Source: Oleomonas cavernae
GTDB lineage: Bacteria > Pseudomonadota > Alphaproteobacteria > Zavarziniales > Zavarziniaceae
Reading direction: 5' to 3'
NCBI RefSeq assembly: GCF_003590945.1
Contig: NZ_QYUK01000011.1
Location: 958,001 to 1,022,000, forward strand
DNA: 64,000 nt
Each line of letters opens with the position of its first letter. The stretch's first letter is position 1. This document shows, one piece after another, positions 44,493 to 50,561 of this stretch. The notes under the pieces were generated by a model. It had not been told where the DNA came from and searched no databases. It saw only the letters and a list, made by a program, of their open reading frames with translations. The position numbers were made by a program, and so were the translations under genes.

Positions 44493-44592
44493 TCGTCATC
44501 CCGGCCTTGAGCCGGGATCTTGTGACGCTCAGGTGCCGGAAACACTGGTCGAAAGATCCCGGATCTGCGCTGCGCTTCGTCCGGGATGACGA
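44493..44592. repeat. Inverted repeat pair of CGTCATCCCGG type
   Basis: Copy one 44493-44520 and reversed copy two about 44565-44592 share TCGTCATCCCGG and GCCGGGATCTT-like segments. It lies between the converging AraC and OpgC-like genes, where it can terminate both. Confidence 0.75.
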
Positions 44593-44602
44593 GAAAAATC
44601 TC

Positions 44603-45811
44603 TCAGGCCACCTTCACCTGACGTGCTGCCAGGTCGCGCCGCTGGTTGGCGGCGTGCCAGGCGGCGGGGATGCCTAGGCTGGCGACCGCGGCGATGATGA
44701 TCGCCGTCTTGCTCGGCTCGTCGAACGGGCCGAAGTGCCAATCGATGGCGCCGACGCCGTAGGCCACGATGACGTGGAAGGCGTAGACCTGCAGCGAATG
44801 CCTGCCCAGGAAGACCAGGAAGGGCAGGGCGAAGAAACGGCGCAGGCCGCGGCCCAGCAGGGCAACCGCCCGCGGCGTGGTCGCTTCCTGGGCATTGTGC
44901 AGGATCCAGGCCACGCCGTAGCCCAGGGCCGCGAAATTCACGACATAGGACAGGCTCAGGTCTTCGCGCCGCAGCAGCTTGTAGAAGCGCTCGCCCAGGG
45001 CGCCGTCCAGGGCGCCCTCGCCATGGACGATGCGCAGGCCGGCGAACAGGGCGACCACACCCAGGGCGATCAAGGCCAGGTCGCGATGCTTGGGGCCTAA
45101 GATCGCATCGGCGCTGAGCCGCCCGCTGGCGGCCGCGGCGCCCAGGACGAGGCCCGAGACGAACAGCAACTGCCAGGCCATCGGGTTGAAGAAGGCGCGC
45201 AGCGTGCCGCCGGGAACAACAGAGGCGAGGCCCGCCTCGGCAGCCTCGACCAGGGGCATCTGCAGGCCGATCTGGGCCATGAACCAGATGGCGCCGCTGA
45301 TCGCCATGACGCGCAGGCCATGGCCGCTGGCTGTGGCGCGCACGATGAACGGCGCCGCCAGCAGGTAGATCATGTATTGCGGCAGAATATCGAGATAGGC
45401 GGGCTGGTAGAGCATGGCGGCCGCCGCGCCCAGGTTGTCGGCCGGCGATTGCGCCAGCTTGCCCAGTTGCCAGCCCCAGATTCTGGCGGCGTCGGGCACC
45501 AGGAACAGCATGGTCATGACCACGGCCAGGGTCAGCAGGACCATGCGGTAGAGTTCGCCCACCCGGGCGCTGGCCTTGTCCCACAGGACATCGGGGCCGC
45601 GCTTGGCCAGGATGCGCGCATAGGTAAGGCCGACGACGAGGCCGGACAGGAAGACGAAGCCCTGGGCATCCTCGACGAAGGCAAACTGGCTGTGGTGAAG
45701 CTTGAGCGCCCAGGCGCCGCCCTGGAAAGCCAGGTGGCTGGACATCATCAGGACGAGAAAATAGCCCCGCAGACCGTCGATCAGGGCAATTCTGTTGCCG
45801 GCGGGCGCCAT
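44603..45811 (-). CDS. OpgC-like membrane acyltransferase
   Basis: A 402-residue protein with about ten membrane helices. It resembles OpgC, which adds succinyl groups to osmoregulated periplasmic glucans: DGLRGYFLVLMMSSHLAFQG start, EDAQGFVFLSGLVVGL, and FLGRHSLQVYAFHVIVAYG near the end. It lies 70 bp after bufC on the same strand, an unusual place for this family, and may be read from the bufferin promoter. No opgG/opgH is in the window. Confidence 0.88.
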   Translation of the reverse strand: MAPAGNRIALIDGLRGYFLVLMMSSHLAFQGGAWALKLHHSQFAFVEDAQGFVFLSGLVVGLTYARILAKRGPDVLWDKASARVGELYRMVLLTLAVVMTMLFLVPDAARIWGWQLGKLAQSPADNLGAAAAMLYQPAYLDILPQYMIYLLAAPFIVRATASGHGLRVMAISGAIWFMAQIGLQMPLVEAAEAGLASVVPGGTLRAFFNPMAWQLLFVSGLVLGAAAASGRLSADAILGPKHRDLALIALGVVALFAGLRIVHGEGALDGALGERFYKLLRREDLSLSYVVNFAALGYGVAWILHNAQEATTPRAVALLGRGLRRFFALPFLVFLGRHSLQVYAFHVIVAYGVGAIDWHFGPFDEPSKTAIIIAAVASLGIPAAWHAANQRRDLAARQVKVA

Positions 45812-45881
45812 CACAGATCTCCTCGCACACAAGCTTGCACAGCTTGGTAATGCCGGGATCGGCGATCGGTTCCCGCAGGGG

Positions 45882-46643
45882 CTAGGCGGCGGGCGGCGAG
45901 GGAGCGGCGGTCTCGAGGCCGCCGACCAGGCCGCCGGCGCACCACCCGGCCAGCCAGGCAACGGCCTGGTTCGGCTCGATATCGTCCAGTGCCGCGGCAA
46001 AGCGCAGGCCGTCGCGCAGGCGGTGGAACAGCATCGCCTCGCCCGCCGCCATCGCGCGGTATTGCACTTCGAGGTTGCGGCGCCAGATCAGCAGGGCGGC
46101 CGGGCCGGCCGGTGCCGGCGTAATCTCCCCCGTCTCGCGCCACATGCGCCACACGTCGTGGACGGCGTGGGCGAGGTCCAGGCCCTGCACCGTCGGATGA
46201 AAGCGGGCGCGCAGCCGTTCCCATGCCGCCGGCGCCAGGGCGGCCAGCGCCTCGGGACCGACGGTGTCGCCATCGCCGCCGTCGAAGGCCAGGCCCAGGG
46301 CCCATTCGAAGGCGGCGAGGTCGGCTGCCATGGCCTGGCCCTGCCGCGCCAGGTGCCCGGCGAAATCGGCGCCCAGCCAGCGGATCGACGGGCGGTGGGA
46401 GGGATGCGCGGCGATATAGGCCCGTGCCGCGCCCTCGAACGCGTCGGATCCCATCAGCGCGGCGGTGGCGGGAAAATCCTTGCCCAGGGCCTCAACCAGC
46501 CGGGCGCCGTAGGCAAAGCGATAGACCCCGAGCAGGGTCTCGCGATCGGTGCGGGCACTGTCGCATATCTGCGGGCTGATCGTGCCGGGTGCCCCCAGGA
46601 CGTCGCGCGCGAAGCCGCGCTGCAATTGCGCCAGGGCGGTCAT
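45882..46643 (-). CDS. bufC: Bufferin maturation partner BufC (DUF2063)
   Basis: A 253-residue DUF2063 protein, related to MbnC/HvfC. It has the N-terminal LQRGFARDVLGAPG region and LGVYRFAYGARLVEALGKDF, which is typical. These proteins assist the MNIO enzyme in binding and modifying the precursor peptide. Start overlaps the bufB stop by ATGA, so the two subunits are made together. Confidence 0.93.
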   Translation of the reverse strand: MTALAQLQRGFARDVLGAPGTISPQICDSARTDRETLLGVYRFAYGARLVEALGKDFPATAALMGSDAFEGAARAYIAAHPSHRPSIRWLGADFAGHLARQGQAMAADLAAFEWALGLAFDGGDGDTVGPEALAALAPAAWERLRARFHPTVQGLDLAHAVHDVWRMWRETGEITPAPAGPAALLIWRRNLEVQYRAMAAGEAMLFHRLRDGLRFAAALDDIEPNQAVAWLAGWCAGGLVGGLETAAPSPPAA

Positions 46644-47470
46644 TGGGCGGCCTCGCGCACGGCCAGGCCTTCGGCGGCATGGCGGCGGACCTGGTCCAAT
46701 TCGTCCAGCAATTCGGCCAGCGGCGGGATGTTGTCGTCACGCTCGATCATCGTCGGCACGGCGCCGAAGCGGCGCACCGCCTGGGCATAGAGTTCGAACA
46801 CCGGGCCGATGATCGGCGCGTCATGGGTATCGATGATGTGGCTGCCCATCATGCTGTGGCCGGCCAGATGGACCTGGCGGATCGCCGCCGCCGGCAGCAG
46901 GTCGAGATAGGCGAGCGGATCGAAGCCGTGATTGAAGGCCGAGACATAGATGTTGTTCACGTCGAGCAGCAGTTCGCAGCCCGAGCGGGCGATCAGCGCG
47001 GCCAGGAATTGGGGCTCCGACAGGTCGGATACATTATAGGTTACATAGGTCGAGACATTCTCGATCACCAGCGGGCGGCGCAGGCGGTCCTGCACCCGGC
47101 CGATGCGGCCGGCGACATGGGCCAGCACCTCGTCGGTATAGGGCAGGGGCATCAGGTCGTGCAGGTTGATGCCGTCGATGCCGGCCCAGCACAGGTGATC
47201 GGAGATCCAGGCGGGCTGCACCCGGTCGGCCAGCGCCACGAGGTCGTCGAGATAGGCGTGATCGAGCGGGTCGCTGCCGCCGATCGACATCGAGACGCCA
47301 TGCATCACCATGGGATAGCGGGCGCGCAGCCGGTCCAGCCAGTCGAGCGGCCGGCCGCCGGGCACCATGAAGTTCTCGGAAATGATTTCGAGCCAGTCGA
47401 CGGCGACACCGTCCTGGTCCATGTCGTGATAGTGCTCGGTCCGAAGACCCAGGCCGAAACCTTCGATCAT
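46640..47470 (-). CDS. bufB: MNIO-family (DUF692) peptide-modifying enzyme BufB
   Basis: A 276-residue multinuclear non-heme iron oxidase of the DUF692/MbnB family, a TIM barrel. Putative metal-ligand motifs are visible in order: EIISENF, HGVSMSIGG, SDHLCW, ENVSTYV, DVNNIYV, HLAGH and DTHDAPI. In characterised bufferin systems the enzyme converts precursor cysteines to 5-thiooxazoles for copper binding. Adjacent bufA and bufC give a complete maturation core. Confidence 0.95.
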   Translation of the reverse strand: MIEGFGLGLRTEHYHDMDQDGVAVDWLEIISENFMVPGGRPLDWLDRLRARYPMVMHGVSMSIGGSDPLDHAYLDDLVALADRVQPAWISDHLCWAGIDGINLHDLMPLPYTDEVLAHVAGRIGRVQDRLRRPLVIENVSTYVTYNVSDLSEPQFLAALIARSGCELLLDVNNIYVSAFNHGFDPLAYLDLLPAAAIRQVHLAGHSMMGSHIIDTHDAPIIGPVFELYAQAVRRFGAVPTMIERDDNIPPLAELLDELDQVRRHAAEGLAVREAAQ

Positions 47471-47512
47471 CGTGGCAGGGTCCTGTCGGCCATCGTCGGT
47501 GTCAAGGCGTGC

Positions 47513-47533
47513 GGGGCCGGCAGTGCCGGCCCC
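47513..47533. other. GC-rich hairpin between bufA and bufB
   Basis: GGGGCCGGCA (47513-47522) pairs perfectly with TGCCGGCCCC (47524-47533). It lies in the 83-bp gap between precursor and enzyme genes and has no T-run. Likely an mRNA stabiliser or partial terminator allowing more precursor than enzyme. Confidence 0.65.
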
Positions 47534-47553
47534 GAGCCGTAAGACCAGGCTGA

Positions 47554-47802
47554 TCAGCCGACCTTGCCGCCGGCGGCGGTGCAGGCAGCCTCGTCCGGGG
47601 CCATGGTGAAGCCCTGGCCCTTGCAGGCGTTCTGGCCCTTGCAGGCATTCGTGGCGCTCTTACACGCACTCTGGCCTTTGCAGGCGTTGCCGCCCGTGCA
47701 GTGAACGTCGGCAGCCTGCGCGGCCATCGGCGCCAGCGCGATGGTGCCGGCCGAGAACAAGGCGGCCGCAGCGGCGGCAAGCGCGAAACCGGATTTGCTC
47801 AT
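47554..47802 (-). CDS. bufA2: Bufferin-type metallophore precursor (BufA2-like)
   Basis: An 82-residue exported peptide. Residues 1-30 form a signal peptide ending AAQA. The mature part has six cysteines (35, 41, 47, 54, 60, 74), four of them in repeated (N/S)AC-K units: NACKGQ, SACKSA, NACKGQ, NACKGQ. This matches the BufA2 class of bufferin precursors. The peptide would be modified in the cytoplasm by BufB/BufC, then exported to bind copper in the periplasm. Which cysteines are modified cannot be read from sequence. Confidence 0.93.
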   Translation of the reverse strand: MSKSGFALAAAAAALFSAGTIALAPMAAQAADVHCTGGNACKGQSACKSATNACKGQNACKGQGFTMAPDEAACTAAGGKVG

Positions 47803-47905
47803 GTCATCCCCCTGGGAATGGAACGTTGAAACGTTGTGTTTTCCATCGCCACCAGTTCATCTGGCAACGGGAACCGACCCTGTACTCAGCGGTTCCAGGG
47901 TGTAG

Positions 47906-47931
47906 TTCGCCTGCCGCCGGGCGAGAGTTAC
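47906..47931 (-). promoter_or_regulatory. SigF-like ECF promoter upstream of bufA
   Basis: On the minus strand GTAACT (47931-47926) is followed by exactly 16 bases and then CGAA (47909-47906). The Caulobacter SigF consensus, as I recall it, is GTAACC-N16-CGAA, and SigF controls bufferin operons there. One mismatch in ten defined bases. The 5' untranslated region would be ~100 bases. Confidence 0.6.
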
Positions 47932-47945
47932 AGGAAAGGCGCCGC

Positions 47946-49526
47946 ATGAATCCCGTATTGCGACTTCAACACCCGGGCGAGGGCGAAAGTTTTCTCGCCG
48001 GCGCCATCCTGCTGCTCGGCATGCTGGCCTGTGCCGCGGCGGTTGCCGTCATGGGCCAGGACGGCGGCTGGGACCTGCGCAACTATCATTGGTATGTGCC
48101 CTTCGCCCTGCTGAACGGGCGGCTGGGCGTCGACGTGCTGCCCGCCTTCATGGGGCCGACCTTCCACAACCCGCTGGTCGACGTGCCGTTCTACCTGGCG
48201 GCAAAGGCGCTGGGGCCGCTGTGGGCCTCGCTGGGCCTGGGGCTGGTGCACGGCGCCAATGCCCTGCCGCTCTATGTCATCGCCCGCCGCGTGCTGCCGC
48301 AGGTCGGCAGGCCCATGGCGGCATTGCTGGCGGTCATCGGGCTTGCCGGGGCCATGAAAATCTCGCTGCTGGGGGCGACGGCGGGCGACAATATCCTGTC
48401 GCTGTTTGCCCTGGGCGCGATCGCCGCCTTCCTGGCGGTCGAGGCGCGGGGGTTGAAGGCGCTGGCCCTGGCCGGCCTGCTGGCAGGGGCAGGGTTCGGG
48501 CTGAAGCCGGTGCTGGCCCCCTTCATCATCGGCCTGACCGTGGCGGTACTGGCGTTTCATACCTTCCGGGCCGGGGGCGGGCGGGCGCTGCTGGTTTTCG
48601 CGCTGGCCGGGATCGCCGGCACCGTGCTCACCGGGGGCTTTTGGATGGCACGGCTCTACGCCGAATTCGGCAATCCCCTGATGCCCTATTTCAACGATGT
48701 CTTCGCGGCACCCTACGTGCCGGCCCACACCTATTCCGATCCCGGCTTCACCGCCGGCCTGCCCTGGCCCCGGGTCCAATTGCCGTTCCTGGCAGGGATT
48801 GTCGATCACGTCAGCGCCGAGGCGAGCTTCACCGACTGGCGCATCCCGCTGGGCTATGCCGGCGCGCTGGCGCTGCTGGCGGCCGGGCTGGTCAGCCGGG
48901 AACAGCGGGCCACGGCGGGCTTCCGCCTGTGCCTGGTCGTGGTGGCGACGCTGGTGCCGTGGTCGATCGTCTTTGCCATCTATCGTTACGTTCTTGCCGT
49001 CGAGATGCTGGGGCCGATCCTGGTCACGCTCGCCCTGCTGCGGCTGATCCCCTGGCGCCGGGCCGCCGGCGTGGCGGCGGCTGTCGTGCTGATCGCCGTC
49101 GTCGCCGTCACCCGGCCGCCGCCGGCGGAACGTGTCGCCTTCGGTCCTGATCTGACCGGCGTCGAGGTGCCGCCGATCGCCACGCCTGAGCGGGCGGTGG
49201 TGCTGATGGCGGGGCTGACGCCGTCGGCCTTCGTCATCCCGTCTTTCCCGCCGACCGTCCGTTTCCTGCGCTTCGACGGCTTCTGGATCGACCCGCCCGA
49301 GCGTGAGGCCGGCTACGCCCGGGAGATCCGCCGCGCCGTCGCGCAGGCGGGCGGGGCGGTCTCGATCCTGTTCGAGCCGGGGGAGGTGGCCCGGGTGACG
49401 GACGCCCTGAAAGCCTTCGACCCCGCCTTGACGATCGGCGCCTGCCGGCCGGTCCGCCACCATTTGGAGCAGCCGGGAACGAACTGGGGCAGCTTCGTGT
49501 TATGTGACGTGAATGGGCCAGCCTGA
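47946..49526 (+). CDS. Polytopic membrane protein, GT-C glycosyltransferase-like
   Basis: A 526-residue protein with about ten to eleven membrane helices and a C-terminal periplasmic tail (about 410-526). An acidic-aromatic loop after the first helix (GQDGGWDLRNYHWYVPFALL) recalls GT-C enzymes that use polyprenyl-phosphate sugars. No single family was recognised. ATG 47946 follows a CAGGAAAGG site. The next gene encodes a dolichol-phosphate-mannose-synthase-like GT2, fitting a donor-maker/user pair. Confidence 0.65.
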   Translation: MNPVLRLQHPGEGESFLAGAILLLGMLACAAAVAVMGQDGGWDLRNYHWYVPFALLNGRLGVDVLPAFMGPTFHNPLVDVPFYLAAKALGPLWASLGLGLVHGANALPLYVIARRVLPQVGRPMAALLAVIGLAGAMKISLLGATAGDNILSLFALGAIAAFLAVEARGLKALALAGLLAGAGFGLKPVLAPFIIGLTVAVLAFHTFRAGGGRALLVFALAGIAGTVLTGGFWMARLYAEFGNPLMPYFNDVFAAPYVPAHTYSDPGFTAGLPWPRVQLPFLAGIVDHVSAEASFTDWRIPLGYAGALALLAAGLVSREQRATAGFRLCLVVVATLVPWSIVFAIYRYVLAVEMLGPILVTLALLRLIPWRRAAGVAAAVVLIAVVAVTRPPPAERVAFGPDLTGVEVPPIATPERAVVLMAGLTPSAFVIPSFPPTVRFLRFDGFWIDPPEREAGYAREIRRAVAQAGGAVSILFEPGEVARVTDALKAFDPALTIGACRPVRHHLEQPGTNWGSFVLCDVNGPA

Positions 49527-49556
49527 CCCGAGGCCCGGCCGAACGAGGATGGTGAC

Positions 49557-50561
49557 ATGGACTGGAATGTCGGTGGTGTAACGGCCGGCCGCGAGATCGC
49601 GGTGATCGTGCCCTGCCTGAACGAGGCCGCCGCGATCGGCCAGGTGGTCCGGGGCTTCCAACAGGTGCTGCCCGAGGCGACGGTGTATGTCTACGACAAC
49701 ATGTCGACCGACGACACGATCGCCGTGGCCAAGGCCGCCGGCGCCGTGGTCCGCCAGGTCAGCCATCGCGGCAAGGGCAATGTGGTGCGCCGGATGTTCG
49801 GCGACATCGATGCCGACATCTACATCATGGTCGACGGCGACGGCACCTACGACCCGGCCGCCGCCCCCACCATGGTGCGCCGCCTGATCGAGGACAATCT
49901 CGACATGGTCGTGGGCACCCGCGTCGACGACGATCCGGAGGCCTATCGCAAGGGCCATCGCTTCGGCAACTGGCTGCTCACCACCCTGGTCACCAAGCTG
50001 TTCGGCCGCACCTTCACCGACATGCTGACCGGCTACCGGGTCTTCTCGCGCCGCTTCGTCAAGGCCTTCCCGGCCCTGTCGAGCGGCTTCGAAACCGAGA
50101 CCGAAATCACCGTCCACACCCTGGAACTGCGCCTGGCCACGGCCGAGATCCCGACCCGCTATTCGACCCGGGTCGCCGGCAGCCAGTCCAAGCTGAACAC
50201 CTATCGCGACGGCGCCCGCATCCTGAAGCTGATCCTGCGCCTGCTGATGCTGGAAAAGCCGCTGGCCCTGTTCGGCGCCTTTGCCGGCGTTTTCGCTCTG
50301 GTCTCGATCGGGCTGTTCGTGCCGATCTTCATCGACTATGTGGCGACCGGCCTGGTGCCCCGCTTCCCGACCCTGATCGTGTCGGTGGGGGCGATCATGC
50401 TCAGCGTGCTGTCGCTGATGACCGGGATCATCCAGGACAACGTCACCCGCGGCCGCCAGGAGTTGAAGCGGCTGTTCTATCTCGCCGCCGGCGAACGCGC
50501 GGCGACGGCGATCAGCCAGTCGACCGGGACCGGCCCTGCCCGCATCGCGCGGCGGGGTTGA
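49557..50561 (+). CDS. GT2 glycosyltransferase, polyprenyl-phosphate sugar synthase-like
   Basis: A 334-residue GT-A enzyme: VIVPCLNEAAAIGQVVRGF start, the YDNMSTDDT loop and the metal DxD as DGDGTYDP. Two C-terminal membrane helices (about 235-260 and 275-300) follow, as in DPM1-like enzymes. Predicted to load a sugar onto a polyprenyl phosphate at the inner membrane, perhaps for the membrane protein encoded just upstream. Confidence 0.87.
   Translation: MDWNVGGVTAGREIAVIVPCLNEAAAIGQVVRGFQQVLPEATVYVYDNMSTDDTIAVAKAAGAVVRQVSHRGKGNVVRRMFGDIDADIYIMVDGDGTYDPAAAPTMVRRLIEDNLDMVVGTRVDDDPEAYRKGHRFGNWLLTTLVTKLFGRTFTDMLTGYRVFSRRFVKAFPALSSGFETETEITVHTLELRLATAEIPTRYSTRVAGSQSKLNTYRDGARILKLILRLLMLEKPLALFGAFAGVFALVSIGLFVPIFIDYVATGLVPRFPTLIVSVGAIMLSVLSLMTGIIQDNVTRGRQELKRLFYLAAGERAATAISQSTGTGPARIARRG

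Follow-up and report, generated by a model that had tools for sequence, protein, structure and literature searches.

How a Buf2-type bufferin operon is switched on is a question that has been left open, because Buf2 clusters are said to have no sigma-factor genes; a survey reported sigma and anti-sigma genes in Buf1 clusters and none in Buf2 (Antoine et al. 2025, PMC12452194). The question is raised here by an operon at 45882-47931 on the minus strand of a 64,000-nucleotide stretch of the Oleomonas cavernae genome (the window), transcribed leftwards from 47931. The host is a Zavarzinia bacterium, with Zavarzinia as the closest named relatives of its genome. The features of the locus are as follows.

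47906 to 47931, minus strand: SigF (ECF16) promoter of bufA2, with -35 element GTAAC(T) at 47931-47926 and -10 element CGAA at 47909-47906, assigned from conservation in relatives and the ECF16 consensus.
47870 to 47896, minus strand: predicted 5'-terminal hairpin of the bufA2 mRNA (GGAACCGCT..GGTCGGTTCC), -12.6 kcal/mol, beginning 10 nt after the -10 element.
47554 to 47802, minus strand: bufA2, six-cysteine bufferin precursor of 82 aa with a Sec signal peptide (NCBIfam NF050166 Cu_RiPP_BufA2, 87.5 bits; cut-off 60 bits).
46640 to 47470, minus strand: bufB, MNIO bufferin maturase (NF050167 MNIO_BufB, 368.5 bits, cut-off 310 bits; PF05114, 358 bits).
45882 to 46643, minus strand: bufC, DUF2063 partner protein (PF09836 DUF2063, 66 bits; cut-off 27.2 bits).
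44603 to 45811, minus strand: OpgC-domain membrane acyltransferase, a genus-specific neighbour 70 nt downstream of bufC (PF10129 OpgC_C, 191 bits).
47946 to 49526, plus strand: divergent membrane glycosyltransferase, a syntenic neighbour outside the operon (weak PMT_2 match).
49557 to 50561, plus strand: GT2 glycosyltransferase, a syntenic neighbour of bufA2 genus-wide, outside the operon (PF00535, 55.5 bits).

The operon is a Buf2-type bufferin operon, which is a known kind, and what we add to it is regulatory, namely the placement of Buf2 under SigF and the hairpin in the leader. As in the published Buf2 (Buf_6/12Cys) clusters (PMC12452194), it encodes a Sec-exported precursor with six conserved cysteines that fits the BufA2 model, an adjoining MNIO maturase that fits the BufB model and a DUF2063 partner, BufC. 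The earlier note, made by reading the DNA, had called this a bufferin operon on the basis of an exported 82-residue six-cysteine peptide with four (N/S)ACK repeats next to MNIO and DUF2063 genes, and the matches to NF050166, NF050167 and PF09836, all above cut-off, bear out both the description and the identity. The repeats run NACK/SACK/NACK/NACK behind a Sec-type N-terminus, the signal peptide being read from the sequence; the PDB relatives of BufB include MbnB and TglH. The genes are closely packed, with 83 nt between bufA2 and bufB and an overlap of 4 nt between bufB and bufC. In a BufB tree built by a quick method, Zavarzinia BufB2 falls in the Buf2 group, comprising mostly Beta- and Gammaproteobacteria, and apart from Zavarzinia BufB1. 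Two Zavarzinia genomes (G004 and G005) carry an additional solo bufA2, at 7847-8095 of L059 and 3931-4179 of L060, with no bufB or bufC nearby; both are preceded by the SigF promoter, and their leader hairpins are very strong, at about -20 kcal/mol.

Upstream of bufA2, the note had read GTAACT-N16-CGAA at 47931-47906 (minus strand) as one base off the SigF promoters of Caulobacter (PMC3511200). The element is indeed there and is kept in relatives, but the deviation is immaterial, since with the preceding T the sequence reads TGTAAC-N17-CGAA at 47906-47932, an exact fit to the ECF16 consensus (T/C)GTAAC-N17-CGAA (PMC8315932). That consensus comes from the Brucella BcrS-AbcS system, which likewise has an NrsF-family anti-sigma factor and MsrPQ-like targets but responds to hypochlorite, with DUF692 unmentioned in PMC8315932. 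We take the promoter to be real because of its conservation and not from the bare pattern: it stands upstream of 9/9 bufA2 genes (the window, five other Zavarzinia genomes including the two solo copies, and the sister genus) and 6/6 bufA1 genes in Zavarziniaceae, with divergent spacers. The idea that the site is a chance match and that another promoter drives the operon draws on the weakness of the pattern by itself (GTAACY-N16-CGAA occurs 20 times genome-wide vs. 13 for its reversed control, and the N15 form 9 times vs. 16) but is rejected as extremely improbable, because the site precedes each of the family's 15 bufferin precursor genes as well as several msr genes, against an expectation of ~6e-4 per 250-nt upstream stretch (about 29 matches in 11.3 million positions). 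Interspersed repeats of the GTCATCCCGG type, found behind the OpgC gene (about 44510-44590, minus strand) and in many of the loci L005-L020, are a source of many chance matches to the promoter pattern.

A search of the genome for a SigF/NrsF pair, which the note had set beforehand as a test, revealed an ECF sigma gene (Sigma70_r2 and r4_2) adjoining the only NrsF match in the genome (77.6 bits). The sigma gene, followed by nrsF, is divergent from a canonical bufA1-bufB-bufC-bufD operon at about 786.1-788.5 kb of the same contig (G000:C11), ~220 kb from the buf2 operon; this operon holds the only other MNIO gene of the genome and includes the DoxX gene bufD. The SigF-type element is also found in the window genome ahead of msrP (NF003767, 416 bits), an msrQ-like gene (124.7 bits, slightly below the cut-off of 130) and two msrA genes; across the genus it precedes msrP in G000 (the window genome), G001 and G004, msrQ in these three and G002, and msrA in G000 and G004. 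The two msrA genes of the window genome (L010 and L235) are different genes, with the element 33 and 48 nt upstream.

This arrangement resembles the copper-induced SigF regulon of Caulobacter crescentus, comprising buf1, a second buf cluster and MsrPQ, in which a sigF mutant is copper-sensitive (PMC8224329). Shared features are the SigF-type promoter, a buf1 operon beside sigF-nrsF, msrP/msrQ in the regulon and a second, DoxX-less buf operon elsewhere in the genome (PMC3511200, PMC8224329). The two systems differ in that: 1) in Caulobacter the two precursors are assigned to the DUF2282 (Buf1) type, whereas the second one here is Buf2; 2) msrA genes join the regulon here and do not figure in the list of SigF genes for Caulobacter. 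By analogy with that regulon, the role in copper stress that the note had proposed would follow for the present operon. Taking the gene set, the promoter with its conservation and the sigF-nrsF pair beside bufA1BCD together, each of them read from the DNA, we are highly confident that the Buf2 operon of Zavarzinia is controlled by SigF.

Such control appears to be rare for Buf2 outside this family. A scan across 84,980 species genomes supplied 74 Buf2 loci, and four of these have the exact SigF element, three from Zavarziniaceae and one from a Myxococcales MAG, so that outside Zavarziniaceae it precedes Buf2 in 1 of about 71 loci. Because Buf2 elsewhere almost never has the element, and because the published survey placed sigma and anti-sigma genes in Buf1 clusters and not in Buf2, we surmise that a Buf2 operon was probably captured by SigF in Zavarziniaceae. 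The Myxococcales locus (L143) is the sole one outside Alphaproteobacteria among the 74 with an exact SigF-type promoter before a Buf2 gene, and its leader hairpin is weak (-6.5 kcal/mol). In another genome (G103, locus L202, about 5330, minus strand) a Buf2-like Cys-rich precursor with a SigF element lies near nrsF, a case that runs against the published absence of sigma/anti-sigma genes from Buf2 clusters.

When upstream regions were compared, almost all bufA genes driven by SigF proved to have a stem that starts ~10 nt downstream of the -10 CGAA. When the MFE of a 28-nt window was averaged over 28 promoters, it fell from about -4 to -12.2 kcal/mol at +8 from CGAA and was back by +16; against dinucleotide shuffles, this corresponds to z of -14.2 for all 28 promoters, -11.4 for Zavarziniaceae and -10.1 for the 13 promoters of other families. 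A second set of 22 promoters, from more bufA1 genes of Alphaproteobacteria and in part phylogenetically linked to the first set, gave z of -7.9 at the same position, with about 5 of the 22 leaders lacking a clear stem. The window's own hairpin, taken alone, is not significant (z -1.6). Permuting the arms among 50 sequences with fixed 5' and 3' arm windows showed that own arms pair better than permuted ones (-12.2 vs. -8.5 kcal/mol, z -10.4), compared to z of 0.4 in control windows further downstream. The sequences of stem and loop differ widely between and within genera, with loops of 3-13 nt and arms of variable length; since the arms nonetheless pair, pairing is kept as sequence drifts. RNAalifold predicted no pairs when 13 leaders from Zavarziniaceae were aligned with MAFFT, a result of stems that vary in length and register. 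These data make it very likely, in our view, that the leader hairpin is under selection in SigF-driven bufA genes.

The hairpin is a trait neither of every SigF promoter nor of all Buf2 genes. The sigF gene has a SigF promoter too, yet its leaders fold weakly (mostly -0.5 to -7) and show no hairpin, although they are short, 5-27 nt in most cases; upstream regions of non-SigF Buf2 genes have at most weak extra structure (mean z -0.7), the hairpin not being seen in 70 loci outside Zavarziniaceae. In the buf2 leaders of Zavarzinia a second stable hairpin comes right after the first (window 47869-47803, minus strand, CGTTGCCAG..CTGGTGGCG), and the energy profile of Zavarziniaceae has a second dip at +30 to +36.

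As to function, the stem is stable and conserved in position relative to the -10 element, with its distance from the 5' end of the mRNA assumed from typical ECF spacing. The closest parallel we know is with the stabilizing 5'-terminal stem-loops of ompA and papA, which, as described in the works cited in PMC3997798 (refs 92-95), share a stable stem near the 5' end of the mRNA and a sequence that apparently is unimportant; in that account they are known from single genes, whereas the present stem occurs repeatedly, at a constant position, in members of a single gene family from different alphaproteobacterial families. By this analogy, the hairpin may stabilize bufA mRNA as a 5'-terminal stem, a proposition to which we assign an even chance. 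We would put on the same footing the broader view that, in SigF-driven bufferin mRNAs of Alphaproteobacteria, a sequence-independent, position-fixed 5'-terminal RNA element controls the lifetime or output of the message, possibly in response to copper.

Two other interpretations of the stem have to be weighed. It could be an RNA element that adjusts the output of bufferin to copper, whether as an attenuator or by binding a protein, an sRNA or a metal. Its restriction to SigF-driven bufA genes and the presence of further stems downstream in Zavarzinia buf2 leaders are consistent with this idea, but the stem has no conserved loop or sequence motif and no U-run behind it, lies 20-100 nt away from the start codon and belongs to no Rfam family, a search of the leader having yielded only chance matches; we therefore consider such an element unlikely. 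Somewhat more doubtful still is a DNA operator, in which the inverted repeat downstream of the promoter would serve a repressor or activator and not form an RNA hairpin. The position just after the start site is usual for operators and the test of strand asymmetry is weak (p 0.07), but a conserved operator should keep its sequence, whereas here arms and loops vary in sequence and length with pairing kept, and the sense strand folds slightly better than the antisense at the hairpin, with the antisense better in matched flanking control windows. Between these possibilities, we favor the 5'-terminal stabilizing stem.

The earlier note had given prominence to the OpgC-domain gene, proposing that it stands in place of BufD and that it links the operon to periplasmic glucan modification. 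No DoxX gene (bufD) is present in the buf2 operon of the window, as the note had said; however, this is normal for Buf2, because a DoxX-like gene is within reach of only 13/80 BufB2 loci, which rules out OpgC as a substitute for BufD. The OpgC gene also has a block of its own in the gap behind bufC (window 45812-45881, minus strand), common to five Zavarzinia species (CGGCATT..., TGTGACAGCTTG in most), which could be a separate promoter or control site of this gene. The glucan link fares no better: the protein has the OpgC_C domain, but the backbone synthesis protein MdoG/OpgG is absent from 7/7 Zavarziniaceae genomes, with the E. coli control detected. A search of solved structures with the OpgC protein gave no match.

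The OpgC-domain gene is truly linked to bufC; a part for it in osmoregulated periplasmic glucans finds no support. Might the gene nonetheless belong functionally to the bufferin operon, its product transferring acyl groups to a periplasmic glycan, or to the bufferin, during copper stress? It is a single-copy gene, always behind bufC in the 5/5 Zavarzinia genomes whose contig reaches (that of G003 ends inside bufC), and the AraC and MFS genes further downstream in the window do not follow. Against this, the sister genus (G006) lacks it behind bufC, and the BufB2 loci outside Zavarzinia yielded no copy; the gap of 70-90 nt across the genus, with its conserved block, may hold its own promoter; and the genus is without MdoG. 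We regard such a part in the operon as improbable, and the original emphasis on OpgC should be dropped. On the other side of bufA2 (window 47946-50561, plus strand), the divergent GT2 gene is present in 6/6 Zavarzinia genomes seen and the PMT-like membrane glycosyltransferase in 4/6, so the bufferin genes in Zavarzinia are flanked by a glycosyltransferase/acyltransferase set.

The explanation that we consider likely as a whole is a SigF-driven Buf2 operon with a copper-binding BufA2 and an mRNA protected by a 5' stem. In this scheme, copper or a similar stress would free SigF from NrsF, copper induction being borrowed from Caulobacter, and SigF would then transcribe both bufferin operons together with the methionine-sulfoxide repair genes msrP, msrQ and msrA. 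The bufA2 mRNA would probably open with the stem-loop 2-5 nt from its 5' end, and the likeliest job of this stem-loop may be to shield the 5' end, thereby stabilizing a small precursor message that is highly expressed, much as the stems of ompA and papA do. As published work suggests, BufB with BufC would convert cysteines of BufA2 to thiooxazoles, and the modified peptide, exported by Sec, would bind Cu(I) in the periplasm. Captophorins, which are 5-thiooxazole peptides, share MNIO-made thiooxazoles and copper detoxification with this prediction, but the precursor characterized there (fontiphorin) is another one with its own MNIO (PMC13097082). The OpgC-domain gene is, in this scheme, a genus-specific neighbour.

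The analysis suggests that in Zavarzinia the SigF-NrsF regulon, besides Buf1 and the genes for methionine-sulfoxide repair, takes in a Buf2 operon in trans, so that Buf2 regulation can be tested directly in a culturable genus. We found no report of a leader hairpin in bufferin genes in the open-access literature; if the RNA element proposed here is real, it would act post-transcriptionally, at a level of control that has been described neither for bufferins nor for other MNIO peptides. Replicated on a second promoter set, the hairpin is a cheap, testable hint that the output of an abundant copper-trapping peptide may be controlled post-transcriptionally, and it may serve as a marker for finding SigF-type bufferin promoters.
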